Positions 2,312 to 41,188 of a stretch of DNA of 64,000 nt are shown in pieces. The notes under the pieces are model-generated. The model ran no database searches. It was not told where the DNA came from and saw only the letters and a list, made by a program, of their open reading frames with translations. Both the position numbers and the translations under genes were made by a program. This stretch comes from Pontiella desulfatans (GTDB lineage: Bacteria; Verrucomicrobiota; Kiritimatiellia; Kiritimatiellales; Pontiellaceae). The DNA is taken from contig NZ_CAAHFG010000001.1 of assembly GCF_900890425.1 (NCBI RefSeq), positions 248,001 through 312,000 of the forward strand. The letters run 5' to 3'. Numbering within the stretch: position 1 is the stretch's first letter; each line of letters opens with the position of its first letter.

Positions 2312-2313
2312 GG

Positions 2314-3462: not shown

Positions 3463-3500
3463 ACGAATCCCTTAAGAATGGGTGCAGATTGGGGGGGTAA

Positions 3501-3531: not shown

Positions 3532-3560
3532 GCTGTGTTGAGTGGGGGACGTGTTTTTAC

Positions 3561-3590
3561 AAAAAAAGGCGCGACCCGGAGATCACGCCT
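3561..3590 (-). terminator. Rho-independent terminator after pstS
   Basis: Read on the minus strand, an 8-bp stem (AGGCGTGA pairing with TCGCGCCT, one G-U) closes an 8-nt loop and is followed by seven T residues. It lies 22 bp past the pstS stop and separates pstS from pstC. Confidence 0.85.
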
Positions 3591-3611
3591 CAATCGTCAC
3601 GCCTCACGTTT

Positions 3612-11435: not shown

Positions 11436-11605
11436 GTTCATCCTCCGTTCAGGTTTCATTAGGCAAAATGGTTTCAAACCTCTGAAATCCCCTTTGCCGC
11501 TTGTTTTAGCGGGTCTCTGCCCCCTTGTAGCACTCCAATGTTTGGGGAATGTTCGCCGCGCATTGGATCTCCTTGTTAAATATGTGCGTATGATTAGGGG
11601 TGAAG

Positions 11606-18176: not shown

Positions 18177-18229
18177 CTAACAGAAAGCTGACACAAAGCT
18201 AATACTTAAATGTTAGCGTTTTGTTAGGA
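18177..18229. promoter_or_regulatory. Pho-box-like repeats in both orientations upstream of the second cotransporter
   Basis: On the plus strand CTAACA, CTGACA and CTAATA at 18177, 18188 and 18199 keep an 11-bp period. Right beside them TTAG cores at 18213 and 18224 form a two-unit box facing the cotransporter. The second box overlaps the phoR stop codon. The CTGACA unit is one base from the E. coli CTGTCA. Confidence 0.6.
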
Positions 18230-20014
18230 CGCGCTGGCGGGGGGTTCGCCTGCGGGGAGGCTGATAATGAAGGTCGTGCCGGCTCCTAGCTGGCTTTCGA
18301 CCCGGATGGAGCCTTCGTGGCTTTGCACGATGTGTTTGACGATCGAAAGGCCAAGCCCCGTTCCGCCCAGTTTGCGGCTGCGGGCGGTATCGACGCGGTA
18401 GAAGCGTTCGAACAGGCGGTCGAGGTGCTTGCGCTCAATGCCGAAGCCTTCGTCCTTGATATAGATCAGCACCTGGTCGGCATGTTTTTCGGCCAGCACC
18501 AGCACCTTTTTGTCGGGCTCGGAATATTTGACGGCGTTGACGATGAGGTTGACGAGCGCCTGTTCCAGCAGGGGCGCGTTGATCGATAGTTCAAGGTCTT
18601 CGGGGCAGACGCAGTCGATCTGGATGTTTTTCTTGCCGGCCTGGAGCTGGCAGAGGTAAATGGCCGTCTCGATGACCGGGGAGAGCTTGCTCGTTTCTTT
18701 CATGACGAGGCCGCCCTTCTGCTCCAGCCGCGATAGCGTGAGCAGGTCGTCGATGATCGAGTTGAGCCGCCCGGACTGCTGGCTGATGATTTGCAGGAAG
18801 CGGAGAATGTCCGGTTCGTGGTTCCATTCGTCCGATAGCAGGGTTTCGACAAAGCCCTTGATGGAGGTGATCGGGGTTTTCAGTTCATGCGAAACGTTGG
18901 CCACAAAGTCGGCGCGCACCGTTTCGAGGTGCCGGATGTGGGTGACGTCGCGCAAGACGATGAGCGCGCCGATCGATTTGTTTTCGGCGTTCCAGAGGAC
19001 GGTGCCGCTGGCCAGAACCTGCTTTTCGGTGTCGCCGATCAGCGTCAAATCGCGCACGAGCGGCTTCTGGGAACCGATGACGGCCTTGATGAACTCCTGC
19101 AGATTGGAGAACCGGACCACTTGCTGGACCAGCTCGCGCTTGGTTTTCTCGTGGTCCACGCAAAGGATTTCGCCGGCGACGCGGTTCATGTGGATAATGC
19201 GTTCCTTGCGATCGACCGCCAGCACGCCTTCATCCATGGAGGAGAGGACGGCATTCTGTTCGTTGCGCTGTTCGATGATCGTGGACAGCGTCGTGTTGAG
19301 CTGCTCCGACATCGAGTTGAGCGCATTCGCCAGCTGGTCGAGTTCCAGCGCCTGCTGGGCGGGGATCCGGTGGTTGAAGTCGCCCTCCGCAAAGCGCCCC
19401 GCGGCGCGCCCCATGCCGCGCAAGGGGTAGGTGATGCGGCGGACAACGCCGATGCAGATAACCATGGCCAGGGCCCCGGAGAGAATCGCGGCCACGAAAA
19501 CCCGAACGGTCATCTTGTTCAGTTCACCCTTGATGTCGGTCATGGGCAGCGAGGCACGCACGGCGCAGAGGGTTTCCTGGTTGCCGCTTTTCAGCGGGAC
19601 GGCGATATACATCATTTCCTGTTTAACCGTTCGGCTGTAGCGCGTATCCATGCCAACGTCCCCGCCGAGCGCCTGCCGGATTTCGGGGCGGTCGCCGTGG
19701 TATTCCATCGTTGAGGGGGTTTCGTCGGAATCGCCGACCACCTTGCCATCGGGCATAATGATGGTGAAGCGGGTGTTTGCGGAGGTTCCTAGCTTTTTGC
19801 ACAAGGCGTCGAGGGCGGCCTCGTCCAGCTCTTCGACCAAGGGGGCCGCCTGCTCGGAAAGCAGTATCGTCCGTGTGCGGATGTCGTCTTCCATGGCCCG
19901 GAAATAGAGATCGGACATGGAGTGGAAGGAATAGAATGCCACCACGACAATCGCGATCGCCATCAGCACCCAATAGGAGGGGAGCAACAACCAGAACAGG
20001 TGCCTTTTCTTCAT
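18224..20014 (-). CDS. phoR: phosphate-regulon sensor histidine kinase PhoR-like
   Basis: This 596-residue membrane kinase should sense phosphate status and phosphorylate the PhoB-like regulator. Domains in order are membrane helix 1 (about 9-30), an extracytoplasmic sensor region, membrane helix 2 (about 168-190), HAMP (about 190-240), PAS (about 250-350), HisKA with the phospho-acceptor in VSHELKTPITSIKGF (near His376), and HATPase_c with N, G1 and G2 boxes (NLIVNAVKYSE, KDEGFGIERK, GGTGLGLSIVKHI). The start is 11 bp after the phoB stop. The large periplasmic sensor region makes it a PhoR/WalK-type kinase; the Pho assignment rests on its neighbours. Confidence 0.9.
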   Translation of the reverse strand: MKKRHLFWLLLPSYWVLMAIAIVVVAFYSFHSMSDLYFRAMEDDIRTRTILLSEQAAPLVEELDEAALDALCKKLGTSANTRFTIIMPDGKVVGDSDETPSTMEYHGDRPEIRQALGGDVGMDTRYSRTVKQEMMYIAVPLKSGNQETLCAVRASLPMTDIKGELNKMTVRVFVAAILSGALAMVICIGVVRRITYPLRGMGRAAGRFAEGDFNHRIPAQQALELDQLANALNSMSEQLNTTLSTIIEQRNEQNAVLSSMDEGVLAVDRKERIIHMNRVAGEILCVDHEKTKRELVQQVVRFSNLQEFIKAVIGSQKPLVRDLTLIGDTEKQVLASGTVLWNAENKSIGALIVLRDVTHIRHLETVRADFVANVSHELKTPITSIKGFVETLLSDEWNHEPDILRFLQIISQQSGRLNSIIDDLLTLSRLEQKGGLVMKETSKLSPVIETAIYLCQLQAGKKNIQIDCVCPEDLELSINAPLLEQALVNLIVNAVKYSEPDKKVLVLAEKHADQVLIYIKDEGFGIERKHLDRLFERFYRVDTARSRKLGGTGLGLSIVKHIVQSHEGSIRVESQLGAGTTFIISLPAGEPPASAS

Positions 20015-20025: not shown

Positions 20026-20721
20026 CTATTCTTCTTCCTTGAAGCGGTAGCCGATTCCCCGGACGGTTTCAATGCATTTCCCGGCCGCGCCCAGTTTTTT
20101 ACGTAGACCCACAATCTGGACATCCACCGAGCGGTCGGTCACCGGATAATCGTCGCCATGGACCGCGTCCACGATCTGGTAGCGCGTAAAGACCCGGCCC
20201 GGTTGCTGGGCCAAGAGCTGGAGCACCTTGAACTCGGTAAAGGTCAGGGCAACATCGGTTCCATCGACCTCCACCTTGTGGCGCGCAACATCGATCGAAA
20301 TGCCGTGGTTGCTGATCAGCTCCTCGCTGGCGACCGACCGGTTAGCCGTAATGCGCCGCAGGGCCGCCTTGACGCGGGCCAGCAGAACCCGCGGGCTGAA
20401 CGGTTTTGTCACATAGTCGTCTGCGCCCAGCTCCAGGCCGGTCACCACATCGGCCTCCTCGCACAGGGCGGTCAGCATAATGATTGGTATGCGCTCCGTC
20501 TTCGGGTCGGCCTTGAGGCGTTTGCAAACCTCCAGCCCATCCGCCCCCGGCAGCATGATATCGAGCAGGATCAGGTCGGGTTGGAATTGTGCGGCCAAGG
20601 TTAGTGCCTCCTCGCCCGAGTCCACCACCTTCACCCGATATTTGTTGCGCTCCAGGTTGAACAACAGCAGTTCCTGGATCGGCGCTTCGTCTTCCACGAC
20701 TAAAATTTTGATCTTTTCCAT
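20026..20721 (-). CDS. phoB: phosphate-regulon response regulator PhoB-like
   Basis: This is an OmpR/PhoB-family response regulator of about 231 residues. The receiver domain (about 1-120) has the acidic pocket VVEDE, the phospho-acceptor Asp54 in LILLDIMLPGADG, and the conserved Lys in DDYVTKPFSPRVLLAR. The C-terminal winged helix (about 135-230) contains LTFTEFKVLQLLAQQPGRVF and TDRSVDVQIVGLRKKLG. An in-frame ATG lies six codons upstream; neither start has a clear ribosome-binding site, and I prefer MEKIKILVVEDE, the usual family start. It is the first gene of phoB-phoR. A possible Pho box upstream suggests self-regulation. It is the likely reader of the 11-bp repeats in this window. Confidence 0.92.
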   Translation of the reverse strand: MEKIKILVVEDEAPIQELLLFNLERNKYRVKVVDSGEEALTLAAQFQPDLILLDIMLPGADGLEVCKRLKADPKTERIPIIMLTALCEEADVVTGLELGADDYVTKPFSPRVLLARVKAALRRITANRSVASEELISNHGISIDVARHKVEVDGTDVALTFTEFKVLQLLAQQPGRVFTRYQIVDAVHGDDYPVTDRSVDVQIVGLRKKLGAAGKCIETVRGIGYRFKEEE

Positions 20722-20765
20722 GCGCCCAATGTTTCGCATTTGCCGAACGCTAACAATCCTTAAAA

Positions 20766-22922: not shown

Positions 22923-23449
22923 TTGCATCGGGAAGCGCAGCAACGGGAACCGGCACGCACGGTTGGTGCATGTTGGCCTTTCGATAAAACCATGTTTTCC
23001 GGCACCAGTTCCGGTTGTTGGGCACATGCGACATTCATAATCCTGCCCTAATCTTTCTTTCCCTTTTCAAATGCATGCCTAACGATATGGGGCCTAAAGC
23101 CCTGGCCGGTAGTATGTTTTGCTAGATTAACCACTAGCGGAACCGTTGCATCCAAACCGTTTCCTAATGTTGCGCTAGCCTGTTCCTTGCCGAAAGCCAA
23201 CGGCATCCACAGCGCCTTCTAATGTTTCCTTAACACAAAAACCGCCCAATGTGCGGTGTCGAAGGGGACAACTCCGCTGGGACGGATAATTTTAACGAAC
23301 CCGACCACTTTGACGTTTCAGCGGGATGATCGGAAACCGGACGGACAAAACGTAAAGGCCGCCGGTTCCGCCCCGACGACATGGGTAGGCAGGACCAATG
23401 TTGCGGGAGACCGCAATTTATTATCGTTAATCATTAAAGGAGAAAGTTA
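22923..23449. other. 527-bp intergenic leader with candidate Pho boxes
   Basis: I see no convincing gene here. Several CTAA-type hexamers occur, and two pairs keep the 11-bp period (annotated separately). The last bases hold AAAGGAGAAAG, the ribosome-binding site of the next gene. The stretch between about 23240 and 23430 could be a long untranslated leader. Confidence 0.5.
23164..23236 (+). promoter_or_regulatory. candidate Pho boxes upstream of the secreted beta-helix-like protein
   Basis: CTAATG/CTAGCC at 23164 and 23175, and CTAATG/TTAACA at 23219 and 23230, are each 11 bp apart and point toward the gene at 23450. They are more degenerate than the pst boxes and 210-290 bp from the start codon. 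Confidence 0.4.
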
Positions 23450-25222
23450 ATGAAAAAACAGTTTATTATCGCAGCTGCCATGGCTGCAGCAGGTGCGGCT
23501 AGCGCGGCACATTATAACCATTCTGGTGATATCACCAGTTCTGTGACTTGGGCAGCCGGCGACACGCATAGCATGGTTGACCGCGTTACCGTGATGCCAG
23601 GGGCAACCCTGACCATCGAACCGGGTACCATTATCGCTAGTGACGGTGGTTCCTTGGCCGTCACGGCCGGTGCTCAGATCCACGCCGAAGGTACTCGCGC
23701 CAAGCCGATCATCTTCACTTCCGTCAACGACGACTTCGCAACCTGGCGCCCGGTGTGCCAGGAGTGGGGTTCGCTTGCGATCATGGGGGAAGGCATCATT
23801 TCCTCGCACCTTTACAAAGGCGCTCCGAAGAACGGTACGCAGAACACCCCGACTGCCGTTGGCACGCACACCCGCGTCATGGAAGGCCTGGTTGCCCGCG
23901 GCGATGGAACCGAAGAGTACGGCGGAAACAACGATGACTACGATGCCGGTACGCTCTCCTATGTTTCCTTCCGCTACGGCGGACAGGTGCTGGAAGAAAC
24001 ATCCGAGCTGAACGGTCTCTCCCTCGGGGGTATTGGCCGCGAAACCCAGATCGACCACATCGAAATCATGAACAACGTCGATGACGGTATCGAAATCTGG
24101 GGCGGCACGGTCTGCATGAAGTATATCTCCATCTGGAACATTGGCGACGACAGCCTCGACTGCGACCAGGGCTGGCGCGGCAAGGTTCAGCATGGCCTGA
24201 TCGTTCAGGGCTACTCCGCCGACGCGAAGCAGGGTTCCGGTGTGGGCGACAACTGCATCGAGATGGACGGTTCCGAAGACTCCGACTGCGAGCCGCACAC
24301 CACCTCCACCCTTTACAACTTCACCGTAATCGGCAACCCCACCAAGGGCGACCACGGCCTTGCGCTGCGCGACAACGTTCGCCTGCAGGTTCGCAACTCC
24401 ATCTTCATGGATATCCCGGACGTGCTGATCGACGAAGAGTATGACGGTGACGGCGGTTCCGGCTGGGGCTTCGCCCAGGGCACGACGGTTACTCCGGATG
24501 ACGGCGATGGAAACTTCTACGCTTCCCACGTTGCCCTGAAGACGGTTCCGAACATGGAAGACACCTATGGCGTTGCCTTCAACGCCAATGCCTATGCCGG
24601 CGACCTGGCCCGCATCGGTGTTGCTTCCAACGAAATCGTCTACTGGGCGCAGGCCGACGGCTACATGAACGAGCTGACCGATACGGTCCTTTACAATGTG
24701 GTCAAGGGTGGGCACATCGACGAGATCGAGCTTTTCGAGTATGCCGGCTACAATGCTGAAGTTGTAACCAACCTGCCGATCGTCGCCTTGGAGCGTGGCC
24801 CGTTGGTTAGCCTGTACGGGGGTGCGCTGTCCTGCGCGCCGGTGACCAACCTGAATCCGTGCGCAGCGAACGATGCCTTGGTTGCCGACTCCCTGCCGAC
24901 CAACGATGGCTTCTTCGATCCGGTATCCTACCGTGGCGCTTTCTCCGCGGATGAAAACTGGCTGGCTGGCTGGACGGCTGCCTATCAGTACGGAATGCTC
25001 GACGGCCGCACCGACGCTGGTGCGACTGAAATCGATGGCGGCGTTTATCTGACCGTTGCTGATTCGGTTGAGGGGCAGTACTACTACGTTGAAAGTTCGG
25101 ACAATCCCGGCTTCGCAAGCAACGTTGTTGTGGAAGCAACCTTGGTCGGTACCGGTTCCGAGATCTACTATGGTGATCCTGCGATCGAGTCGGCCAAGTT
25201 TTTCCGCATCACTTCCTACTAA
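23450..25222 (+). CDS. secreted beta-helix-like protein of unknown function, partner of a TonB receptor
   Basis: This 590-residue exported protein begins with a signal peptide (AAGAASAAH, cleavage near residue 20). The N-terminal part (VTVMPGATLTIEPGTII, then GAQIHAEGTRAKPIIFTS) and the middle (IDHIEIMNNVDDGIEIWGG) look like successive turns of a right-handed beta-helix. It resembles a family of exported proteins often next to TonB receptors in Bacteroidetes and proteobacteria. The protein is rich in Asp and Gly, which suggests Ca2+ binding, and has Cys pairs. Translation starts after AAAGGAGA. A hairpin follows the stop. It heads the cluster that includes the lipoprotein and TonB receptor. 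No enzymatic residues are recognised. Confidence 0.75.
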   Translation: MKKQFIIAAAMAAAGAASAAHYNHSGDITSSVTWAAGDTHSMVDRVTVMPGATLTIEPGTIIASDGGSLAVTAGAQIHAEGTRAKPIIFTSVNDDFATWRPVCQEWGSLAIMGEGIISSHLYKGAPKNGTQNTPTAVGTHTRVMEGLVARGDGTEEYGGNNDDYDAGTLSYVSFRYGGQVLEETSELNGLSLGGIGRETQIDHIEIMNNVDDGIEIWGGTVCMKYISIWNIGDDSLDCDQGWRGKVQHGLIVQGYSADAKQGSGVGDNCIEMDGSEDSDCEPHTTSTLYNFTVIGNPTKGDHGLALRDNVRLQVRNSIFMDIPDVLIDEEYDGDGGSGWGFAQGTTVTPDDGDGNFYASHVALKTVPNMEDTYGVAFNANAYAGDLARIGVASNEIVYWAQADGYMNELTDTVLYNVVKGGHIDEIELFEYAGYNAEVVTNLPIVALERGPLVSLYGGALSCAPVTNLNPCAANDALVADSLPTNDGFFDPVSYRGAFSADENWLAGWTAAYQYGMLDGRTDAGATEIDGGVYLTVADSVEGQYYYVESSDNPGFASNVVVEATLVGTGSEIYYGDPAIESAKFFRITSY

Positions 25223-25250
25223 GGTTCTGCTGCAGGAAAAATGATCAATA

Positions 25251-25275
25251 TGGTGGCAGGGTTCCCCTGCCACCA
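25251..25275 (+). terminator. hairpin between the secreted protein and lipoprotein genes
   Basis: A 10-bp perfect stem (TGGTGGCAGG with CCTGCCACCA) with a 5-nt loop lies 28 bp after the stop codon. No T-run follows, so it may be a leaky terminator or an mRNA 3'-end stabiliser that lets the first gene be expressed more than the next. Confidence 0.5.
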
Positions 25276-25298
25276 CTCTCTATTATTAGGTATGGAAT

Positions 25299-26546
25299 AT
25301 GAGTATACGGTTTTTCTTTCTCTGTTTGATCTCTTTGTCGTTGGTTGGTTGTGTTGCGCGGGATGGCGATGCCGGATCTCTCACGACAAGCCAACGGGAG
25401 CTGGTTCTACAGGTCAAGGGTGCGCTTGGGCAGCTTCCCGACGAGCCGCATAAACGAACCCGTAACCGGGAGCTGGGCCTTCTTGCGGAAGTGGCTCTGG
25501 AGGCGGATGAAGAATCGCTCGTACTTGAGGTTGTTGAGGCAATCGACAACTGGCGAAACATACAATTGAAAGCGGAGCTGGCAACGACCTGCTACAACAT
25601 GGGCCGGGAGGAGAAGGCCCGGCAACTCGTGGAGGAGGTTGAGCAGACGGTCGACACGGTTCTTGGAATTAAGAGCGGTAGGATCGTTGCGGCGGGAGAA
25701 AACAAAAACATCTTGGAGGAATACGACGATTTTCGCCTGGATCGTGTGAAAGTGGCGCTCTCCAAATATTATTTTACCAAGGGAGACAAGGAGTCTGCCA
25801 AAAAATGGAGCGAGGGTGTGCTGCCCGCCGAGCAGTCCGAGTTTATCAAACAACAGGCGCAGGCATTGGCTAAAGAGAATTACGACACCTCGCTTGCCGT
25901 AAATAATATTTTGATTAAGGGAGAGACCTTCGAGGGTAAGAAAGCCGGCATTGATGGGCTGGTGTTGCTATTCGACCTCTACTATGGCGAGGAAGGGAAA
26001 CGCAATGAATTGAAGGCCTTGATTGACGAGTTTTCTATCTCCATGCCGGTGATGTACCGGGTGGAGTGGTTGCACGGCATGGCACTTTCCGCTTTCGGCC
26101 ATGGCGATGCCGCGGTGGCAAGGTCGTTGTATATAGAGTCTTCCTTGCTTATATCGGAAGGCTCCTTCAAGCCCCGTCTCTTCTTTCCGTTGAAAGCGGA
26201 AAACATCATTACCTCGCATAAGCTTGGGTTTCGTGAAGAGGCGTCCGAAGCCGCCGACCTGCTTTACGGGGAATATGCCAGGTTCGAGGGCAACATCTAC
26301 AACATCCACCGGGCAGACGTGCTCTGCGCGGTTGGCGAAATGTTTGTTGCGATCGGGCGTATGGATCGTGCGGAAGAGGTTTATCTGAATGCGCTGGATC
26401 AGGCCGGCGTGAATCCGAACTCCAGACCCCGGGTCGAGGACTTGAACCTCATCGCGTGCTCCCTGATTAAGCATGATGTTCCGTTAACATCCGGACTGCA
26501 TGAAAAGATGGATGGATTCGTGGGATCGTTGGGGGCGCCTTGGTAG
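25299..26546 (+). CDS. lipoprotein with TPR-like helical repeats
   Basis: This is a 415-residue predicted lipoprotein. The signal peptide ends with a lipobox (SLSLVGC), so Cys17 would be lipidated. The rest is alpha-helical with pairs of helices resembling TPR or Sel1-like repeats, for example near 95-115 (LATTCYNMGREEKARQLVEE) and 335-365 (VGEMFVAIGRMDRAEEVYLN). It lies 77 bp after the secreted protein and 124 bp before the TonB receptor gene. By position it may be a surface or periplasmic helper of that receptor. I do not recognise a named family. Confidence 0.7.
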   Translation: MSIRFFFLCLISLSLVGCVARDGDAGSLTTSQRELVLQVKGALGQLPDEPHKRTRNRELGLLAEVALEADEESLVLEVVEAIDNWRNIQLKAELATTCYNMGREEKARQLVEEVEQTVDTVLGIKSGRIVAAGENKNILEEYDDFRLDRVKVALSKYYFTKGDKESAKKWSEGVLPAEQSEFIKQQAQALAKENYDTSLAVNNILIKGETFEGKKAGIDGLVLLFDLYYGEEGKRNELKALIDEFSISMPVMYRVEWLHGMALSAFGHGDAAVARSLYIESSLLISEGSFKPRLFFPLKAENIITSHKLGFREEASEAADLLYGEYARFEGNIYNIHRADVLCAVGEMFVAIGRMDRAEEVYLNALDQAGVNPNSRPRVEDLNLIACSLIKHDVPLTSGLHEKMDGFVGSLGAPW

Positions 26547-26557
26547 GCGGCCCGCAC

Positions 26558-26575
26558 TTAACATAACACTAACCC
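26558..26575 (+). promoter_or_regulatory. Pho-box-like double repeat upstream of the TonB receptor
   Basis: TTAACA at 26558 and CTAACC at 26569 keep the 11-bp period and point toward the receptor gene about 95 bp away. Confidence 0.5.
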
Positions 26576-26670
26576 TAAAAAGGTTGTTGCCGATTTTGGT
26601 GCACCGTAAAACCCATGCACCTATTTGTGTTTGAATGGGGTTTGGATTTGAATTGGTTTGGTAGGTTTTG

Positions 26671-29600
26671 GTGAAATATTCTTTAAAAACACTGTTGGTT
26701 GTCTGTTGTTCGTTCATTGTCGTCCAGGCGTATTCCCAGATGGGGGGTATCCGCGGCTCGGTGATGGACAAGGATTTCGAGGTGCCGTTGACCGGGGTGA
26801 AGGTTCGTATTTCGGAGACGGGACAGGAAGCCGAAACCGGGGATGCGGGGAGCTATTATCTCGAGCAGGTTCCTCCCGGCGCATACACGTTGCTCTTCAG
26901 CAAATCCGGATACACCCGGTTCACGAAACCAGAGGTTGTCGTGATGGGGGGGCAGCTGGCCGAGGTGGAGGCCGCCCTTGAGGGCGAATACGAAGAGATG
27001 GACGAGCTGGTGGTTCGCGATATCCAGCTGGGCGGCGCGTCCGAAATCGGCTTGCTTAACCTGCGTATGGAAAGCTCCGCGCTGATGGATTCCGTTGGCG
27101 CGGATCTGATCAGCCAGGCGGGCGCGAGCGATGCGGCGGGTGCGCTGAAACTGGTTTCGGGAACGACGGTTCAGGATGGCAAATATGCCGTAGTCCGCGG
27201 ATTGCCCGACCGCTATGTGGTATCGTTGCTCAACGGCGTGCGTCTGCCGACGGCCGATCCGGATAAACGCGCCGTGCAGCTGGATCAATATCCATCGTCG
27301 TTGATCGAGAGTGTTCGAGTCCTGAAATCATTCACTCCGGATCAGCAGGGCGATGCTTCCGGCGGTGCCGTGGACGTGGTCTTGCGGGGCATCCCTGAAA
27401 AGCGCGTGCTCAAGTTCAGTGTCGGTACCAAATACAACGAAAATTATGGCGGAGATGAATTTCTCTCATATGACACCAGCGAGAATGATTATTGGGGGCA
27501 GCGCGAATTTGAGCCCGCCGAAGACCTCGCTGAAACAATAGATGGTGAGCAGAGAAACGATCGACCCATTGCGCAATACCCCACGACTTCGTATGGGGTT
27601 AGCCAGACCGATCAACCGGAAAACTATAGTTGGGGCATCGAGCTGGGAGACCGGTATGACCTTGACCTGTTCGGTGAGGAGGTCTCGGTCGGGGGGCTTG
27701 CCGCATTCAACTACGAGCAAAGCGCAACCTACTATGAAGGAATTTCTGATAAATACACCCTGGCTCCGGATAACACCTATACGAATACGGGAACCATTTC
27801 CAAGGAGGTGGATAGCGAACACGTTGCGTTGACGGATATGTGGGATATTAAAAAAGGCACCTATGAGATTAACTGGAGTGGTGCGGTAGGGATTGGCCTG
27901 GAGCACGAACTCCTGAAACTCAATTATCTGCATGTGTTCACCCATAATACGGAAGATACCGCCATCCAGTCCCTGGATTTCCGTGGACGTGAGACCTATA
28001 ACCCCGAGTATGTTGATTTTGTCGAGCCGGAAAGCAGTTCGGATTACCTGCAAGACTTCTCGAGATACTACGCGCCATACCGGCGATCGGAATCGATCGT
28101 TTATGCAGAACGTGATACGGAGTCGGATCAGTTTGGCGGGGAGCTTACCCTTCCGGTTCCGGATTTGAACCTGGGGATCATTAAGTTCAAGCGGCCGGTA
28201 TTGGACATCAAATTGTCCGATAGCTCATCCTCGTTGTGGAAGCAGAAGGAAATGCTGGACTATTTTTGGTATCCCGGAAAGGCGACAACGGAGATTGCCG
28301 AGGGGTGGGAATGGGATGCGGGGATTCCTACGGATGACATTCTTCCGGGGGCGCTGGAAAACTTTGTGTCAGGGGCCGCCTGGTTGAATCCTTTCACGAA
28401 TTCCCTGGGGGAAGTGAAAGCCCCGCCTGCGGTAACTGAAAAGTGGATTACCGACTATGCGGCTTTTAAGAGCTATATCGAGCGTCATCCCGAGTTGGGT
28501 TTGGTTTTCCCGCAGTACGCCTGGTATAACGGAAACGTTAATGTGGACGGATCGAATCCGCAGGAGATAACCGGAGTTGAGTCCAACGGCACCTACGTGG
28601 CCGATTCGGGGATTCAGTTGGGCAACTATCAGGTGATTTGGCAAGAGGTGGTCGAGGATAGCGATCAGGTTGCCTTCAACTATAAGTGGGATTTTGAAAA
28701 CTGGACGGCCAACAAAGGGTTCTTTAAGGCCGGCATTTTCCAGGATCGCGTCGACCGCAAATATTTCCAACAAACCCTAAGCAACATTTCGCCGGATCCC
28801 AGTGTGTCGTTCGATACCGGATTCAAGGGCACTTGGGATGAGAGTCTGGCGGATCTGTTCGCGGCCGATTCGAATACCGCCGTGTATTCTTCCTTCGCCG
28901 ATATTCAATACGATGGCGAACAGGATCTTGATGCCCATTATTTCATGCTCGATTTCCCCGTATTCGATTTCCTCACCGTCCGCGGGGGGGTAAGGCACGA
29001 AGAATTTGCGCTGAAAACATTCCTGGAGCCCGACGACTATCAGTATGCGCGAACCATCAAGTCGGGGGGCGGGCTTGGGTATCTTACGTCCAATGAAACG
29101 GGGTATGTGGAGGATGCCGATTATAGCCGGGTCGATAACCTGCCCTCGATCGGTTTCGACCTGACTCCCGTCGAGCCGATTACGTTCCGGTTCAACTGGG
29201 CTCAGACGGTGGCCAAGCAGCAGTTCAAGGAGGTCGTCCCCATCATTCAGCGTGAATACGCGGGAGCGGATGCGTTTTACGGTAATCCGGATCTGGTCGC
29301 CAGCCCGGTGGATAATCTCGATTTGCGTTTGGATTACACGCCTTATCCCGGTGGATTGATCTCCGTCTCCTACTTCACCAAGGACATCACGGATCCCATT
29401 CAATATTATAAGGGATATGATGACTACGGAAATGGATATACCTTTGTTACCAACTATTCTTCGGCCTGGGTCGATGGCTATGAATTTGAAATCCGGCAGG
29501 ATCTAGGCCGCTTTTTCTCTCCGATGGAAGGCATGAGTGTCGGTGCCAACTACACGTACATTACCGGAGAGGTCGATCTGGGCAATGGCGAGACCAGCGA

Positions 29601-29946
29601 TGTCATGGAGATGCCCGAATATCTGTACAACCTCTTCTGCACCTACGGCATTGATTTCATGGACACGAAAATCGGTCTGTTCTACACGCATCAGGGCGAT
29701 ACGCTTAAAACGGTTAAAAACGACGAAGGGACGCCGTCTCCAGCGATCTATGCGCTCGATTACGGCGCGCTCAACTTCACGATCTCAACCAAGTTGACCG
29801 ATCATTTGAAACTCAGTTTCAAAGCCAAGAACCTAACCGACCCGGATATCCAAACGGTCTATCGGGTGGATGGATTGGGGGATGCGTTGCATACGTCGTA
29901 TACCAAAGGGCGCGAGTATTCGGTAGGAGTCACGGCCTCCTGGTAA
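26671..29946 (+). CDS. TonB-dependent outer-membrane receptor with N-terminal carboxypeptidase-regulatory-like domain
   Basis: This large outer-membrane gated channel has about 1091 residues. After a signal peptide (cleavage near residue 23) comes a CarboxypepD_reg-like beta-sandwich (about 25-105; GGIRGSVMDKDFEVPLTGVKV), then the plug (about 115-250; YAVVRGLPDRYVVSLLNGVRL) and a 22-strand-type barrel ending in the expected aromatic residue (VGVTASW). The start is uncommon: a GTG at 26671, or a TTG one codon earlier, with only a weak AGG upstream. It is followed by a dedicated TonB energising operon. Pho-box-like repeats upstream point to a phosphorus-containing substrate, but the ligand is unknown. 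Confidence 0.9.
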   Translation: MKYSLKTLLVVCCSFIVVQAYSQMGGIRGSVMDKDFEVPLTGVKVRISETGQEAETGDAGSYYLEQVPPGAYTLLFSKSGYTRFTKPEVVVMGGQLAEVEAALEGEYEEMDELVVRDIQLGGASEIGLLNLRMESSALMDSVGADLISQAGASDAAGALKLVSGTTVQDGKYAVVRGLPDRYVVSLLNGVRLPTADPDKRAVQLDQYPSSLIESVRVLKSFTPDQQGDASGGAVDVVLRGIPEKRVLKFSVGTKYNENYGGDEFLSYDTSENDYWGQREFEPAEDLAETIDGEQRNDRPIAQYPTTSYGVSQTDQPENYSWGIELGDRYDLDLFGEEVSVGGLAAFNYEQSATYYEGISDKYTLAPDNTYTNTGTISKEVDSEHVALTDMWDIKKGTYEINWSGAVGIGLEHELLKLNYLHVFTHNTEDTAIQSLDFRGRETYNPEYVDFVEPESSSDYLQDFSRYYAPYRRSESIVYAERDTESDQFGGELTLPVPDLNLGIIKFKRPVLDIKLSDSSSSLWKQKEMLDYFWYPGKATTEIAEGWEWDAGIPTDDILPGALENFVSGAAWLNPFTNSLGEVKAPPAVTEKWITDYAAFKSYIERHPELGLVFPQYAWYNGNVNVDGSNPQEITGVESNGTYVADSGIQLGNYQVIWQEVVEDSDQVAFNYKWDFENWTANKGFFKAGIFQDRVDRKYFQQTLSNISPDPSVSFDTGFKGTWDESLADLFAADSNTAVYSSFADIQYDGEQDLDAHYFMLDFPVFDFLTVRGGVRHEEFALKTFLEPDDYQYARTIKSGGGLGYLTSNETGYVEDADYSRVDNLPSIGFDLTPVEPITFRFNWAQTVAKQQFKEVVPIIQREYAGADAFYGNPDLVASPVDNLDLRLDYTPYPGGLISVSYFTKDITDPIQYYKGYDDYGNGYTFVTNYSSAWVDGYEFEIRQDLGRFFSPMEGMSVGANYTYITGEVDLGNGETSDVMEMPEYLYNLFCTYGIDFMDTKIGLFYTHQGDTLKTVKNDEGTPSPAIYALDYGALNFTISTKLTDHLKLSFKAKNLTDPDIQTVYRVDGLGDALHTSYTKGREYSVGVTASW

Positions 29947-29970
29947 CAACCCGCTAACATACCCCTCATT
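29943..29970 (+). promoter_or_regulatory. Pho-box-like triple repeat upstream of the DUF3450-ttpC-exbBD-tonB operon
   Basis: GTAACA, CTAACA and CTCATT start at 29943, 29954 and 29965, an exact 11-bp period, beginning on the receptor's stop codon. An AT-rich -10 candidate (TAATAT) follows about ten bases downstream. This is one of the best-formed boxes in the window. Confidence 0.6.
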
Positions 29971-30013
29971 CAGCAATAATATTTTGACAATAGAACTCTA
30001 GCCCGAGGTGAAC

Positions 30014-30766
30014 ATGAAAAAACAAATATGGATGATTTTAGCCGTCTCCGGCGCGGTGGCCTGCCTGGCGCAGGACAACGAGCTGGAGCTCACGAAGGAG
30101 ACGCTTTCGAAGTGGGTCGAAACCCGCAAGCTGATCTCTCAGGAAAAGGAAAAATGGGAACTCGAGCGTGAAGTGCTCGGCGACCGCATCGACCTGGTGC
30201 GCTCCGAACGCGACACCCTGTCCAGCAAGATCCACGAGACGCAGTCGCTCATTACCGACGCCGACAAGAAACGTGAGGATTTGGTTGAGGAGAACGATGC
30301 GCTCAAGAATGCCTCGGCCACGCTCGTTAACCGAATCTTCACATTGGAGCGCAGCGTGCTGAAGTTGCTGCCCACCCTCCCGGTACCGGTGCAGGATCGG
30401 ATGAAGCCGCTCAGCCAGCGCATCCCGAAAAACCAGGAGACCGAGCTCTCCCTCTCCGAGCGCTACCAGAACGTCGTCGGCATCATCAATGAGCTCAACA
30501 AGGGCGCCAACGAAATCTCGGTCGTCAGCGAAGTGCGCGAGCTTCCCGATGGCAGCACGGCCGAGGTTCAGACCCTGTACCTCGGTTTTGCCCGGGCCTT
30601 CTACTGCACCAACAAGGGCGACATTGCCGGCGTTGGCCATCCCGGAGCCGAGGGTTGGGTCTGGACGTCCAACAACGCCATCGCCCAGCAGGTGGCCGAT
30701 TCGATCTCCATTTTGAAAAACGAAAAAACGGCGGAGTTTATCCCGCTGCCCGTCGGCATCGATTAA
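30014..30766 (+). CDS. DUF3450-family periplasmic coiled-coil protein
   Basis: This 250-residue exported protein starts with a signal peptide (cleavage near residue 19, CLAQ). A long coiled coil follows (about 25-105) and then a small globular domain (about 130-245) with LYLGFARAFYCTNKGDIAGVG, typical of DUF3450. Genes of this family almost always precede TtpC-ExbB-ExbD-TonB operons in proteobacteria, where a role in assembling or tuning the TonB complex is presumed. The ATG at 30014 is chosen because GAGG lies five bases upstream. It is the first gene of the operon and has its own Pho-box-like site. Confidence 0.85.
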   Translation: MKKQIWMILAVSGAVACLAQDNELELTKETLSKWVETRKLISQEKEKWELEREVLGDRIDLVRSERDTLSSKIHETQSLITDADKKREDLVEENDALKNASATLVNRIFTLERSVLKLLPTLPVPVQDRMKPLSQRIPKNQETELSLSERYQNVVGIINELNKGANEISVVSEVRELPDGSTAEVQTLYLGFARAFYCTNKGDIAGVGHPGAEGWVWTSNNAIAQQVADSISILKNEKTAEFIPLPVGID

Positions 30767-30808
30767 TTCGTCACTCGGAAAACGCTTTAAACCCAAACAG
30801 GAAATCAG

Positions 30809-32251
30809 ATGAACGATTCAGGATTCTACCACACACACCTGCGGAACCGCATGGAGCGGATTGTGATTTTTATTGCGTCGGTATTAGTGCTTTGCTCGCT
30901 CTACGCATTCGCTGAACCCGAGGTGAAGATGCAGGAAAAACTCGATGCCAGCCTGCAGGAGCTTTCCAATATCAGGAAGGGCATCTCGCAGGAAAAGCTT
31001 CCGATGGTCAAAGGCCTTAATGCCCTTGAGGACGAGGTGATGGATGTTCGCCTCGAACACCAGAAGGTGATGCGCCAGCTCGATAGCCGCAATCTCGACC
31101 TCAACAACCTGCGCTCCGAAATCACGATGCGCAAGGGCGAGAAAAGCTATATTTCGAACCTGCTCGGCGAATATATCCGCAACTTCGAATCCCGCCTGCA
31201 CATTGCCGAACTCGACATGTACCAGGAGGTCATCAAGGCCGCCGTGCTTGCGCCCGACAACACGAACCTTTCCGACGAGGAAATCTTCGTCAAGCAGACC
31301 GAGCTGGTCGAGGCCTCGATCCTGCGCCTGCAGAATTCGGTCGGCGGATCGGCCTTTGCCGGAAATGCCGCCGGGGACGACGGCCTCGTTAAAGACGGGC
31401 AGTTCATCGTGGTTGGCCCCGTGGCAATCTTCGCCTCGGACGACGGTTCCATGGCCGGCATCGCCGAGCAGCAGCTCGGTTCGCTCGAGCCCACGGTCAT
31501 GCCGTTCGCCGACCCCGCCAACGCCGCCATGGTGGCTGCCACCATCAAGAACATGGGCGGCGACTTCCCGTTCGACGCGAGCCTGGGCAATGCCCGCAAG
31601 ATTGCCGAAACCAACGAGACCTTTTCGGAGCATTTGGCCAAGGGCGGCAAAGTGGGCTATGTGATCGTCGGCATGTTCGTCCTCTGCATACTGGTTTCCA
31701 TTTACAAGTGGATCCAGTTGTCGCTGGTGCCTCGCGTATCCGAAAAGCGGGCCATGCCGGTGCTGAAAGCTATTCTGGTGAACGACCATGAAACCGCCGC
31801 CGCCGAAATCCGGAAACTCAAGGGGCCGACCGGTGCCATGCTGACGGCCGGCATCGAGCATATCGACGAGCCGAAGGATCTGGTGGAGGAAGTCATGTAT
31901 GAAGAGCTGCTGACCACCCGCATGAGCGTCAACAGCCTCACACCGGTTCTTGCCGTGTGTGCTTCGACCGCCCCGCTGATGGGGCTGCTGGGTACGGTGA
32001 CCGGCATCATCAATACCTTCAAGATGATTACGGTCTTCGGATCGGGCGATGTGAAGACGCTTTCCGGCGGTATTTCCGAGGCGCTCGTCACCACCGAAAT
32101 GGGGCTGGTGGTCGCGATCAGCGCGCTGGTCTTCTACGCCTTCCTCTCCCGCAAGGCCAAGAGCATTACCGACCAGATGGAGCAGATCGGCATTCTCTTC
32201 ATCAACCGTTCGACCCGTGCGGTGGAAGACGAACCTGCCGCGGCAGCATAA
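30809..32251 (+). CDS. ttpC: TtpC-like protein: ExbB/MotA/TolQ-type proton channel with long periplasmic extension
   Basis: This 480-residue inner-membrane protein carries a signal-peptide-like segment (about 14-35), a periplasmic coiled-coil region (about 38-160) and a small domain (about 180-260). A C-terminal MotA/TolQ/ExbB module follows (about 285-460; STAPLMGLLGTVTGIINTFKMI). The layout matches TtpC of Vibrio TonB2 systems, an extra ExbB-like subunit needed for some TonB complexes. It is followed by a normal ExbB, so the operon has both. AGGA upstream supports the start. The dependence on TtpC suggests that the complex spans or contacts something larger than ordinary TonB machines. Confidence 0.88.
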   Translation: MNDSGFYHTHLRNRMERIVIFIASVLVLCSLYAFAEPEVKMQEKLDASLQELSNIRKGISQEKLPMVKGLNALEDEVMDVRLEHQKVMRQLDSRNLDLNNLRSEITMRKGEKSYISNLLGEYIRNFESRLHIAELDMYQEVIKAAVLAPDNTNLSDEEIFVKQTELVEASILRLQNSVGGSAFAGNAAGDDGLVKDGQFIVVGPVAIFASDDGSMAGIAEQQLGSLEPTVMPFADPANAAMVAATIKNMGGDFPFDASLGNARKIAETNETFSEHLAKGGKVGYVIVGMFVLCILVSIYKWIQLSLVPRVSEKRAMPVLKAILVNDHETAAAEIRKLKGPTGAMLTAGIEHIDEPKDLVEEVMYEELLTTRMSVNSLTPVLAVCASTAPLMGLLGTVTGIINTFKMITVFGSGDVKTLSGGISEALVTTEMGLVVAISALVFYAFLSRKAKSITDQMEQIGILFINRSTRAVEDEPAAAA

Positions 32252-32260
32252 ATGGAAATA

Positions 32261-32327
32261 ACCACAGAGCTCACTGAGGCACAGAGATAACTCAATTTCG
32301 ATAGCAACGCCTCCGTGCCTTTGTGGT
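32261..32327. repeat. family-A intergenic palindrome (ttpC-exbB gap)
   Basis: The left arm ACCACAGAGCTCACTGAGGC pairs imperfectly with the right arm GCCTCCGTGCCTTTGTGGT. It fills almost the whole 85-bp gap between two operon genes. Related copies occur at 34210, 35760, 46344, 46470 and 50385. Confidence 0.8.
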
Positions 32328-32336
32328 GAAAATACT

Positions 32337-32960
32337 ATGAATCTGGATTTACAAGCTTTTTGGGAACAGACCCTCGCCATCTGGACGTCGGGCGGGTGGG
32401 CCATGATTGCCCTCGCGGCCGATGCCTTTCTGATCTTCTATCTGGGCATGAGTATCTTTTCCCGCATTCGGGCCAAGGGATACCTCTATGTTTCCGAGAA
32501 GAAGATGAAGCGTTGGGTGAAGGAGCCTGCCAAGGGGCGCGGCCCGGTCGGCAAAATGATCCGTTTTGTAATGGGCGCGCGCTCCCTGGAGGAGATCGGC
32601 ATTTTCTTCGATGAGTTGAACCAGACCGAGATCGCGCCGCTCAACCGCGACCTGAAGGTGATGCAGACCTGCGTGAGCATCGCGCCGCTGATGGGGCTGC
32701 TCGGAACGGTGACCGGCATGCTGGCCACGTTCGCCGCGTTGGCCGGCGGATCGGGCGGCGACAAGACCATGGGCATGGTGGCCGGCGGCATTTCCGAGGC
32801 GTTGATCACCACCGAGACCGGCCTGCTGGTCGCGCTGCCGGGGCTTATTTTCCAATACAAACTGGCGCGCGAGCATGCGCAGTACAAGGCCTTCCTCGCC
32901 CACCTGCAGACCGTCTGCTCGCAGCGCATCTACAAACAAAGCCTAAGGAAGGCGGCGTAG
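32337..32960 (+). CDS. exbB: ExbB-type proton channel subunit
   Basis: This 207-residue inner-membrane protein forms, with ExbD, the proton channel that energises TonB. It has an N-terminal membrane helix (about 20-40) and a C-terminal pair of helices (about 115-185) with the conserved SIAPLMGLLGTVTGMLATF and GISEALITTETGLLVALPG. It is shorter than TtpC and is the core channel subunit. It directly precedes exbD, with a palindrome in the 136-bp gap. Confidence 0.92.
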   Translation: MNLDLQAFWEQTLAIWTSGGWAMIALAADAFLIFYLGMSIFSRIRAKGYLYVSEKKMKRWVKEPAKGRGPVGKMIRFVMGARSLEEIGIFFDELNQTEIAPLNRDLKVMQTCVSIAPLMGLLGTVTGMLATFAALAGGSGGDKTMGMVAGGISEALITTETGLLVALPGLIFQYKLAREHAQYKAFLAHLQTVCSQRIYKQSLRKAA

Positions 32961-32961
32961 G

Positions 32962-33077
32962 GAATTAAGAATGCAGAATTATGAATTAAGAATGGTTGGC
33001 GGGGCTTCCCCGCACCCCTTTAAAGGAAAGCGTCGCAGACCAATCATTCTTCATTCTGAAATCTTAATTCTTCATTA
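32962..33077. repeat. family-B AT-rich palindrome (exbB-exbD gap)
   Basis: Tandem GAATTAAGAATG/GAATTATGAATT units on the left pair with ATTCTTCATTCTG and TTAATTCTTCATT on the right around a GC-rich centre. It is unrelated to family A in sequence but occupies the same kind of site. Confidence 0.7.
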
Positions 33078-33096
33078 AATATACGGAGTACATACC

Positions 33097-33507
33097 ATGG
33101 GACGTTTTAGTAGCAGCAGCGAAGACAGCTCGGAAGTGGCAGTGGATATTTCACCGCTCATCGACTGTGTATTCATTCTTCTCATCTTCTTCATCGTCAC
33201 CACCACCTTCGTGGAGGAGACCGGTGTTGAAGTGGATAAACCGCAGGCCGCGTCGTCGGTGCAGTTGGAAAAGACCAGCATCATGATTGCGGTCACCGAC
33301 AAGGGGCAGATCGTGTACGGCGGAAACGATATCGGCATTGCCGGAGTCCAGCCGCTGGTCAAGCGCATGATGCAGAAGGAAGACGTGCCGGTGATCGTGC
33401 AGGCCGACCAGAACGTGGCATCCGGCCTCATGGTGCGCGTGATCGACGAAGCGAAGCTGGCCGGCGCGGTCAAGGTGAGCATCGCCACCCGCAAGAAGCA
33501 GGGATAA
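33097..33507 (+). CDS. exbD: ExbD-type TonB-complex subunit
   Basis: This 136-residue protein has one membrane helix (about 20-42) and a periplasmic domain. The helix starts with the essential aspartate in VDISPLIDCVFILLIFFIV, the proton-handling residue of ExbD/TolR. The C-terminal part has the ExbD fold (VPVIVQADQNVASGLMVRVID). It lies 3 bp before tonB, so the two are translationally coupled. Confidence 0.93.
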   Translation: MGRFSSSSEDSSEVAVDISPLIDCVFILLIFFIVTTTFVEETGVEVDKPQAASSVQLEKTSIMIAVTDKGQIVYGGNDIGIAGVQPLVKRMMQKEDVPVIVQADQNVASGLMVRVIDEAKLAGAVKVSIATRKKQG

Positions 33508-33510
33508 TCC

Positions 33511-34173
33511 GTGAGCGACCATGCCATAGTGAAATCCTTCCAGTGGGTGCTGAAGCAGGCGATGTATGCCGGCAGCGGGGTCGTGTTCGCGTTTCTGCTG
33601 TTCCTGCTGCTGCCGATTCTCCAGGTCATCACCAGTCCGCCGGCAAAGGATCTGACCATCCGTTCGGTCGATGCCGTGGTCGAGCCGCCGCCTCCGCCGC
33701 CTCCGATGGAGGAGCAGGAGGAACCGGAACCGGAGGAGCAGCCTCCGCCGCCCCCCGCGGTCGATGCGCAGCCGCTCGACCTTTCGCAGCTCGAGCTCGC
33801 GCTTAATCCGGGCGACGGTGGATTCGGTGGCGGCGACTTCGCCATCAATCTGGCGGGCGTGACCGGCAACAGCGACGAGGTGGATGCCATCTTTTCGCTC
33901 TCCGACCTCGACCAGAAGCCGCGCGTGGTCTACCAGCCCGCGCCGATCTATCCGCCGGAGCTGGCGCGCAAGAACATGCAGGGCACCGTCTATGTTTTGT
34001 TCATTGTCGACAAGACCGGCCGTACCCGCGACCTCAAGGTTCAGAAATCAACCCACCCGGCCTTCAACAACCCCGCGCTCAAGGCCGTGAAGCAGTGGAA
34101 GTTCGAGCCGGGTAAACGCAAGGGCAAGCCCGTCCAGTTCCGGATGCGCGTGCCGATCACCTTCCAAAAATAG
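33511..34173 (+). CDS. tonB: TonB energy-transducing protein
   Basis: This 220-residue protein links the ExbB/ExbD motor to the outer-membrane receptor. It has an N-terminal membrane anchor (about 20-42), a Pro/Glu-rich stretch (runs of PPPP and EPEPEE, about 55-90) that spans the periplasm, and the C-terminal TonB fold (about 135-218; YPPELARKNMQGTVYVLFIVD and WKFEPGKRKGKPV). The start codon is GTG three bases after the exbD stop. A Gly/Phe-rich linker separates the Pro region from the domain. The spacer is short for a TonB. Confidence 0.93.
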   Translation: MSDHAIVKSFQWVLKQAMYAGSGVVFAFLLFLLLPILQVITSPPAKDLTIRSVDAVVEPPPPPPPMEEQEEPEPEEQPPPPPAVDAQPLDLSQLELALNPGDGGFGGGDFAINLAGVTGNSDEVDAIFSLSDLDQKPRVVYQPAPIYPPELARKNMQGTVYVLFIVDKTGRTRDLKVQKSTHPAFNNPALKAVKQWKFEPGKRKGKPVQFRMRVPITFQK

Positions 34174-34182
34174 GTACTCAAC

Positions 34183-35751
34183 ATGATTGCAAAACAACAG
34201 AATGAATTGGCCACGAAAGGCCGCAAAGAAAACAAAGCATTCCCTTTTGCGTCCTTTGCGCTCTCTTGTGGCAAAAAAATAATATTGCCGAGCCTGCTGT
34301 TTGTGGCAGCTTCCGTTTCCGCCAACGAAATGCTTGAACTGCTCGATGGGCTTCCGGGCGCCAAGGCGTCGGTGGCGCCCGCCGTGGCCGAGGCCGTGCA
34401 TGCCGAAAAGGATATGTCCGCCATCGAGAAGAAGGAAGTCTCCATCAAGAAACCGGAATCGATGCAGGATCTCTCCATCTGGGACGAGGAACTCTTCCAG
34501 AAACAGTTCCTGGCCAGCTATGGCGCGAACGCCGAAATCGAACCGCGCGTCTCCGCCGTCGAGCACGAGCAGATGCAGAAGGTCATGGATATCATGTCGG
34601 ACGGCGACGATATGGAAAAAGCCATCAATCAACTCAGGAAGTATACCAAGGATTCCTCCTCCGCCATCTTCGACTTCACCATCGGCAACCTCTATTTCCA
34701 GCAGGACAACCTGGAGGAAGCCTTGGCCTGGTACGACAAGGCGATCGAAAAGTTTCCATCCTTCCGCCGCGCCTACAAGAACGCCGGACTCATCCACGTC
34801 CGCAATGGCGATTTCAAGAAGGCGCTGCCGCTGATGACCAAGGTCATTGAACTGGGCGGCCACACCTCCATCGCCTACGGGCTGCTCGGTTTCGCCTACG
34901 GCTCGATCGAAAACCACCTCTGTGCCGAGTCGGCCTATCGCCAGGCCATCCTGCTCGATCCGGAAACGATCGACTGGCAGCTCGGCCTCGCCCGCAGTTT
35001 CTTTAAGCAGCAAAAGTTCGGCGACGCCGTCAGCCTGTGCAACACGCTCATCGCGAGGAAGCCCGACAATGCCGATTTCTGGTTGCTGCAGGCCAATGCC
35101 TATCTCGGCCTTAAGCAGCCGATGAAGGCCGCCGAAAACTATGAATATGTCAACGCCATGGGCACGGCCACCGCGGCCAGCATGACCATGCTCGCCGACA
35201 TCTATGTGAACGAATCCCGTTGGGACATGGCGGCCGATGCCTACCTGCGCGCCTACGAACTCGACAACGGGAACAATCCCTCCAAGCCGTTGCGCGCCGC
35301 CAAGATCCTGGCCTCCCGCGGTTCGCTCGACCAGTCCAACCGCATGCTCAACCGCGTGGCCGAAAAGAAGAGCGCGCTCGACCAGTCCGACCTCAAGGAA
35401 CTCCTCAAGCTCCAGGCGCGGGTTGCCGTGGCCGCCGGCGGGGGCGAGGATGTGGTGAAGATTCTCGAGGAGGTGGTCGAGGTCGATCCGCTCGATGGCG
35501 AGGCGCTCATCCTGCTCGCCCAGCACTATGGCCGCAACGTTCCTGAAAAGGCGGTCTTCTACTACGAACGCGCCGCCAACATCGAGAGCCACGAGGCCGA
35601 GGCCAAGCTCTACCACGGACAGCTGCTCGTCGGGCAGGCCAAATATGCCGATGCCCTGCCGCTCCTGCGCCGCGCCTACGAGCTCAAACCCCGTTCCGAC
35701 ATCGAGGACTACGTCAAGCAAGTCGAGCGCATCGCCAAAACCCGCAGTTAG
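34183..35751 (+). CDS. exported TPR-repeat protein of the TonB operon; N-terminus derived from a palindrome
   Basis: This 522-residue protein consists mainly of tetratricopeptide repeats (about 140-520; for example NLEEALAWYDKAIEKFPSF and CAESAYRQAILLDPETIDW). TPR proteins commonly end TtpC-type TonB operons, and in Vibrio a TPR-type partner is needed for full activity. A hydrophobic stretch (about 35-48, ending SVSA) acts as a signal peptide. Unusually, residues 10-30 before it are encoded by a family-A palindrome, so the original start was replaced or extended. The translation start is therefore less certain than elsewhere in the operon. It begins 9 bp after tonB. Confidence 0.85.
   Translation: MIAKQQNELATKGRKENKAFPFASFALSCGKKIILPSLLFVAASVSANEMLELLDGLPGAKASVAPAVAEAVHAEKDMSAIEKKEVSIKKPESMQDLSIWDEELFQKQFLASYGANAEIEPRVSAVEHEQMQKVMDIMSDGDDMEKAINQLRKYTKDSSSAIFDFTIGNLYFQQDNLEEALAWYDKAIEKFPSFRRAYKNAGLIHVRNGDFKKALPLMTKVIELGGHTSIAYGLLGFAYGSIENHLCAESAYRQAILLDPETIDWQLGLARSFFKQQKFGDAVSLCNTLIARKPDNADFWLLQANAYLGLKQPMKAAENYEYVNAMGTATAASMTMLADIYVNESRWDMAADAYLRAYELDNGNNPSKPLRAAKILASRGSLDQSNRMLNRVAEKKSALDQSDLKELLKLQARVAVAAGGGEDVVKILEEVVEVDPLDGEALILLAQHYGRNVPEKAVFYYERAANIESHEAEAKLYHGQLLVGQAKYADALPLLRRAYELKPRSDIEDYVKQVERIAKTRS
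34210..34272. repeat. family-A palindrome inside the TPR gene's 5' coding region
   Basis: The arms GCCACGAAAGGCCGCAAAG and CTTTGCGCTCTCTTGTGGC pair imperfectly. The element is read in frame as residues 10-30 of the TPR protein. Confidence 0.8.
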
Positions 35752-41087: not shown

Positions 41088-41188
41088 GGGGGCATACAAA
41101 TAACGTATTCCTAATACGCTTTATATTATCTGCCAACGGAACAAAGGCTATATGAGCCCCTTGAGCAAACAACCCACAGGAGTTCATC

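Follow-up and report, generated by a model that had tools for sequence, protein, structure and literature searches.

What does a TonB-dependent transport cluster import when it lies among the phosphate-starvation genes of its genome and opens with a secreted beta-helix protein? We address this question for a locus of the marine bacterium Pontiella desulfatans (genome 8.66 Mb) in the window, by which we mean the whole 64,000-nucleotide stretch analysed, positions 248001-312000 of the first contig. Nine genes lie on its + strand in a single order, encoding the beta-helix protein, a tetratricopeptide-repeat (TPR) lipoprotein, a TonB-dependent receptor, DUF3450, TtpC, ExbB, ExbD, TonB and a TPR protein, and they adjoin pst, phoBR, sodium/phosphate (Na/Pi) transporter and porin O/P genes. 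An earlier note on this DNA had described this order on one strand, with pst, phoBR and a phosphate porin as neighbours; all nine genes are present in that order, and the neighbours were found by profile matches in the window. We think it probable that the cluster is a phosphate-starvation-induced outer-membrane import system of two modules, a receptor cassette (beta-helix protein, lipoprotein and receptor) and a six-gene motor.

Receptor cassette and motor evolve as separate modules

Pairwise identities among twelve genus- and order-level loci divide the cluster into two blocks, a split that the present analysis brought out and that the earlier note lacks. Identities of the beta-helix protein, lipoprotein and receptor correlate with each other at rho 0.91-0.95 and those of the six motor genes at rho 0.77-0.90, whereas correlations between the receptor block and the motor block range from -0.32 to 0.07. 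Loci L056 and L057, from different families, share 81% identity in the beta-helix protein and 66% in the receptor, against 45-60% in the motor genes except ExbD; L055 and L058, from one genus, share 80-94% in the motor, against 58% in the beta-helix protein and 55% in the receptor. The genus forms a single clade in the motor tree (100/100), a grouping that the receptor tree rejects (approximately unbiased test, p-AU 1.4e-4). Because the blocks co-vary internally and not mutually, and because the two trees disagree, we favour exchange of receptor cassettes over a fixed motor; the likeliest reading of these comparisons is that a new trio took the place of the old one beside a motor that stayed, the Pho box ahead of DUF3450 lying at the junction. 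Co-variation is also the best evidence here that the beta-helix protein, lipoprotein and receptor act together, as we infer.

Within the order, cassettes seem to have been swapped between two families (L056 and L057/L059 versus L055 and L058), and the motor follows taxonomy. The receptor of the order-level locus L060 groups with Planctomycetota and the window receptor does not; a direct Planctomycetota origin of the window cassette is not claimed.

The co-variation bears on a different view of the cluster, in which the beta-helix protein is a surface coat or adhesin that is deployed in phosphorus shortage and that the TonB machinery would arrange or release, with no nutrient import. In starved cells, relatives rank with the most abundant exoproteins (PMC8115612) or reside in the stalk (PMC2996285); type IX secretion system (T9SS) tails occur in some, and an S-layer glycoprotein model matches one. 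However, both the tight co-variation of beta-helix protein and receptor and the invariant polar ladder described below are more readily explained by ligand handling than by a passive coat, and we regard such envelope remodelling or adhesion as decidedly unlikely.

Of the partners in the cassette, the lipoprotein (25299..26546, +; 415 aa) has the lipobox LVGC, a C-terminal NPNSRPR-type motif and a terminal PW, and is modelled as a TPR-type alpha-solenoid (predicted local distance difference test score, pLDDT, 87). The NPNxRPR-type motif is invariant, as is the terminal PW. Homologues turned up only in relatives at genus, order and class level and in Planctomycetota, and we therefore consider the protein an accessory of these lineages. 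A SusD-like role found no support, with no SusD Pfam match and no SusD among the best 50 folds. The receptor (26668..29946, +) comprises an N-terminal carboxypeptidase-regulatory domain, a plug and a barrel.

Pho boxes precede the beta-helix gene and the motor

To score Pho boxes we used a matrix for the half-site SCTAACA, which recurs every 11 bp; it was trained on the sites of pstS, two Na/Pi transporters, the porin and phoB only, with the cluster sites left out. Twelve sites in the window, training sites counted, score at least 14, compared with 0.3 in shuffles. This independent matrix places boxes, all on the + strand, ahead of the three units where Pho-box-like repeats had been claimed: the beta-helix gene (TCTAATGTTTCCTTAACA, 23218..23235, score 14.0), the receptor gene (CTTAACATAACACTAACC, 26557..26574, score 16.5) and the DUF3450/motor operon (GGTAACAACCCGCTAACA, 29942..29959, score 16.3, with a third repeat at 29964). 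A weaker Pho-box-like pair (CCAAACCGTTTCCTAATG, 23152..23169, +, score 13.0) lies upstream of the 23218 box. The cluster has the 11-bp direct-repeat boxes 5' of transcription units that characterize the PhoB regulon.

The earlier note had also proposed looking for these repeats in other genomes. Among eight genus- and order-level relatives, the DUF3450 box recurs in 8/8, with the caveat that its first half-site overlaps the terminal TGG-TAA of the receptor gene, and the beta-helix box in 6/8; that of the receptor recurs in 1/8, and none of the eight has a box upstream of the ExbB, TonB, TPR or lipoprotein genes, which served as negative controls. Because boxes recur in relatives and the negative-control genes have none, the beta-helix gene and the motor are each predicted in silico to have their own conserved Pho promoter, so that boxes in both window and relatives support the claimed phosphate control. 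Genome-wide, the strict Pho pattern is not enriched (8 matches versus 12 for a reversed control) and was therefore not used as a regulon map. Three of the eight matches fall in the window, and only ppx-ppk has a clear phosphate relation among the five outside it: there a strong pattern (L161, C1:2522000-2530000, site 5810) stands 5' of the exopolyphosphatase gene ppx, which is followed by the polyphosphate kinase gene ppk. Another strong pattern (L162, C1:4188000-4196000, site 6128) lies directly 5' of the gene for a secreted protein of 1629 aa that combines lamin-tail domains with a CotH kinase domain.

The motor operon runs, on the + strand, from a TtpB-type DUF3450 protein (30008..30766; PF11932, E 2.5e-28) through a TtpC-type MotA/TolQ/ExbB-family protein with a long N-terminal part (30809..32251; PF01618), ExbB (32337..32960; PF01618), ExbD (33097..33507; PF02472) and TonB (33511..34173; PF03544, TIGR01352) to a TPR protein in the TtpD-type position (34183..35751). 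Its type is that of the Fur-controlled Vibrio TonB2 set (PMC6957404), so the receptor might take up iron or a siderophore, as in Vibrio, and lie near pst and phoBR by chance. However, no Fur box above shuffle expectation was found upstream of any cluster unit, Pho boxes are present instead and are kept in relatives, and elpS, the Caulobacter relative of the beta-helix gene, does not respond to iron (PMC2996285), all of which makes an iron role highly improbable. Since no Fur box rises above chance, we assign the motor to the TonB2 type but not to the TonB2 iron system.

The beta-helix protein carries a conserved acidic ladder

The first gene (23450..25222, +) encodes a secreted right-handed beta-helix protein of 590 aa related to ElpS, F-I and F-II, with a signal peptide and no lipobox. 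It has no significant Pfam family, and a PDB sequence search with its profile gave no match. In the AlphaFold2 model (pLDDT 76), short strands form a coil; the solved folds nearest to it are right-handed beta-helices, although these matches are weak and none reaches E <= 0.001. Across 62 beta-helix sequences, D211, D212, E215, D233 and D237 are invariant, with at least 97% conservation of D234, D239, E271 and D273. The segments D211-D212-x2-E215 and D233-D234-x2-D237 are spaced by 22 residues and occupy equivalent turns of successive coils in the model, where they stack on one face. Because these invariant acidic residues stack on one modelled face, they suggest a metal- or ligand-binding site, or else a catalytic one. 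Refolded or immunoprecipitated ElpS had no phosphatase activity, and its overexpression nonetheless raised activity in supernatants (PMC2996285); for this reason, binding or activation is favoured over catalysis. Relatives differ in export route (lipoprotein, T9SS tail, type II secretion system (T2SS) neighbour or plain signal peptide), which suggests an extracellular job for the family.

The fold also invites a carbon-based explanation, in which the beta-helix protein binds or cuts polysaccharide, the receptor imports oligosaccharides and phosphate control is incidental. The fold neighbours are polysaccharide-active beta-helices (polygalacturonases and lyases), F-I and F-II were modelled as polygalacturonase-like by the Flavobacterium authors (PMC8115612), and Pontiella species live on algal polysaccharides (PMC10880615). 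However, the cluster has neither a carbohydrate-active enzyme nor a sulfatase, it has no SusD partner, the linkage to phoBR, pst and Porin_O_P recurs in other taxa, and the Flavobacterium relatives are induced by depletion of inorganic phosphate (Pi) and tightly repressed under nitrogen and iron limitation (PMC8115612). Glycan import is, in our assessment, unlikely.

A bolder proposal, offered tentatively and with the balance against it, is that ElpS-type beta-helices are secreted phosphorus-capture proteins, the phosphorus counterpart of hemophores. The acidic ladder would hold phosphorylated or metal-bridged ligands and pass them to a matched receptor, and beta-helix protein, lipoprotein and receptor would form a ligand cartridge that can be exchanged on a shared, Pho-driven TonB motor.

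The gene order is conserved across phyla

We surveyed 289 genomes of the phylum, 80 named loci and plasmid records. The beta-helix family is present in Verrucomicrobiota, broadly taken, Planctomycetota, Bacteroidota, Gemmatimonadota, Alpha- and Gammaproteobacteria and others. Of 120 loci, from many phyla, 99 have a TonB receptor gene within 4 kb of the beta-helix gene; most of the other 21 are on contigs that end close to the gene, and two from Planctomycetota have a receptor 5.8 kb away. The full order, including lipoprotein and motor, also occurs in Planctomycetota (loci L074, L076, L078 and L084), and the arrangement, which the earlier note had suggested seeking in other genomes of the Planctomycetes-Verrucomicrobia-Chlamydiae (PVC) group, is accordingly not limited to one strain. 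Bacteroidota loci have beta-helix and receptor genes, often with phoBR and without the motor, and the order in Pseudoalteromonas is motor, beta-helix, receptor. Within the phylum, DUF3450 is found in 40 of 42 genomes bearing the beta-helix family (E <= 1e-14) versus 37 of 247 others (Fisher p 4e-25, with kinship ignored). A scan of 217 proteins encoded next to related loci yielded Porin_O_P as the sole recurrent phosphate-linked family (7/110 in the PVC set and 3/107 in the other).

A proposed route for phosphorus import

On phosphate depletion, PhoR/PhoB would activate three separate promoters with 11-bp repeats, those of the beta-helix gene, the receptor and the motor. The exported beta-helix protein may then use its stacked acidic site, probably with a divalent metal, to capture a phosphorus-bearing ligand, or may aid an enzyme that frees one. 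Co-variation and co-transfer suggest that it works in one complex together with the TPR lipoprotein and TonB receptor. The receptor would move the ligand into the periplasm, powered, as the TonB2 homologue implies, by the DUF3450-TtpC-ExbB-ExbD-TonB-TPR motor, and phosphate freed there would be taken up through Pst or Na/Pi symport. By swapping the receptor cassette and retaining the motor, related bacteria could change ligand or escape phages and keep a Pho-driven motor. Small phosphates can enter through the co-regulated porin, and our best guess for the substrate is therefore a phosphorus-bearing ligand that is larger or scarce.

Several points weigh against this import route. Phosphate control in P. 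desulfatans is deduced from Pho boxes, with activation presumed, and the receptor's own box is mostly not kept in relatives. The putative metal site derives entirely from conservation and modelled strand order, and divergence of the receptor block may partly reflect fast evolution and not exchange. The cluster has no phosphatase, phytase or lipase gene that could supply a substrate-processing enzyme. In Caulobacter, expression of the receptor gene cc0171 is constitutive, and deletion of elpS left supernatant phosphatase unchanged (PMC2996285).

Few secreted proteins of phosphate-starved bacteria are more abundant than those of the ElpS, F-I and F-II family. We argue for a role of the family in energy-driven outer-membrane import because its members co-vary and travel with a TonB receptor and, in several phyla, share Pho control with a motor of their own. 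If this is true, the import of phosphorus compounds by TonB-dependent systems extends widely beyond the SusCD-like systems of Bacteroidota, and the analysis yields named residues and genes that are open to experiment.

Neighbouring genes

Upstream of the cluster, on the - strand, lie a PhoB-type response regulator (20026..20739; best match TIGR02154, 257 of 296 bits) and a PhoR/PnpS-type histidine kinase (18224..20014; 394.9 of 400 bits to PnpS), both best matches slightly under the curated cut-offs; PstS, PstC, PstA and the Na/Pi neighbours score above theirs. A Na/Pi cotransporter with a PhoU domain (16431..18131, -) has a strong Pho box at 18211-18228, the phosphate/polyphosphate-selective porin (Porin_O_P; 10305..11477, -) one at 11606, and pstA, pstC and pstS (803..4430, -) have boxes at 4502 and 3501. 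Between phoB and an HMG-CoA reductase gene is a perfect 42-base palindrome (TTGTGTAATCCAGATTGACGATCGTCAATCTGGATTACACAA, window 20860-20901), with no obvious terminator T-run.

Downstream of the cluster, a gene at 39437-41020 (+) encodes a choice-of-anchor I family protein, a relative of which lies near the cluster and phoBR in locus L050 (16929, +); it is possibly an extracellular partner of the cluster. A Pho-box-like pair (14.0) at 41099 lies upstream of a gene (41509-43905, +) for a long protein with a C-terminal glycosyltransferase family 4 (GT4) domain, weakly like lipid glycosyltransferases, which possibly contributes to phosphorus-free lipid synthesis under Pi starvation. Overlapping Pho-box-like pairs (16.7 and 15.8) at 45540-45568 stand 5' of a gene (45636-46337, +) whose 233-aa product has no Pfam match, a possible member of the Pho regulon.

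Comparison with known systems

The closest known counterpart of the window pair is Caulobacter crescentus ElpS (Cc0170), which is made only under phosphate starvation and adjoins the TonB receptor Cc0171 and T2SS genes; its authors suspected a functional link (PMC2996285). Both loci place a beta-helix-family protein beside a TonB receptor, with starvation expression documented on the Caulobacter side (PMC2996285). In Sphingomonas and Indioceanicola, loci that share the Caulobacter order (beta-helix, receptor, gsp genes) encode proteins 33-35% identical to the window beta-helix protein; homology to ElpS and to the Flavobacterium johnsoniae proteins is drawn from these same-order loci and from the papers. 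ElpS is a lipoprotein, whereas the window protein has a plain signal peptide, and Caulobacter has T2SS genes in place of the lipoprotein gene and TonB motor. Since the window protein has no lipobox, we call it a relative and not an orthologue of ElpS. It does share the core homology of the family (28-36% to proteobacterial and Bacteroidota members by tblastn, E 1e-15 to 2e-34) and the nearby receptor gene, reached after the lipoprotein gene; Pi-starvation induction is predicted from its Pho boxes.

In Flavobacterium, the ElpS homologues F-I and F-II are strongly Pi-induced beside TonB transporters, with one pair in a phoBR operon (PMC8115612). In F. johnsoniae these pairs are PUSIII and PUSIV (Fjoh_3856/3857 and Fjoh_0545/0546), each a Pi-induced lipoprotein of beta-helix fold with a TonB transporter, one by phoBR (PMC8115612), and Bacteroidota loci L107, L116, L117, L139 and L144 have the same make-up. 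Unlike the window cluster, PUSIII and PUSIV have a lipidated beta-helix protein, no dedicated motor and no TPR lipoprotein. SusCD and PusCD systems place a SusD-family surface lipoprotein beside the TonB-dependent transporter, and the cluster has none.

Vibrio TonB2 begins with ttpB2, continues through ttpC2, exbB2, exbD2 and tonB2, and ends with the TPR gene ttpD2, ttpB2 and ttpD2 both being essential (PMC6957404). The window motor matches TonB2/TonB3 in all six gene types and their order, DUF3450 first and TPR last, which bears out the earlier note's view that the motor half was already known from TonB2/TtpC systems. TonB2 is under Fur control and serves siderophores (PMC6957404), whereas the window motor follows a Pho box and goes with a receptor pair of ElpS type. 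The Alteromonas macleodii pBGP9 locus (NZ_OX359244.1) carries phoB-phoR-pstS-oxygenase-beta-helix-receptor-DUF3450-TtpC-ExbB-ExbD-TonB-TPR in a single run; its beta-helix protein is 1356 aa and annotated as hypothetical, and unlike the window it has no TPR lipoprotein. The oxygenase, encoded between pstS and the beta-helix gene (L166:6377-7168), is of the 2-oxoglutarate-Fe(II) type.

In the open literature we found no description of an ElpS-type pair combined with a TonB motor. The in silico evidence for a phosphate-controlled TonB import cluster is good. The cluster had been called a candidate new system; its phosphate control and conserved order stand, but that label goes too far, because the pair is of the ElpS/Cc0171 and F-I/F-II type and the motor of the TonB2 type. 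Both the Pi-starvation pair and the kind of motor joined to it were known, the parts being familiar from other bacteria, and what is new is the separate variation of receptor cassette and motor, the invariant acidic ladder on the beta-helix protein, and the coupling of that pair, across several phyla, to a dedicated and separately Pho-boxed motor.

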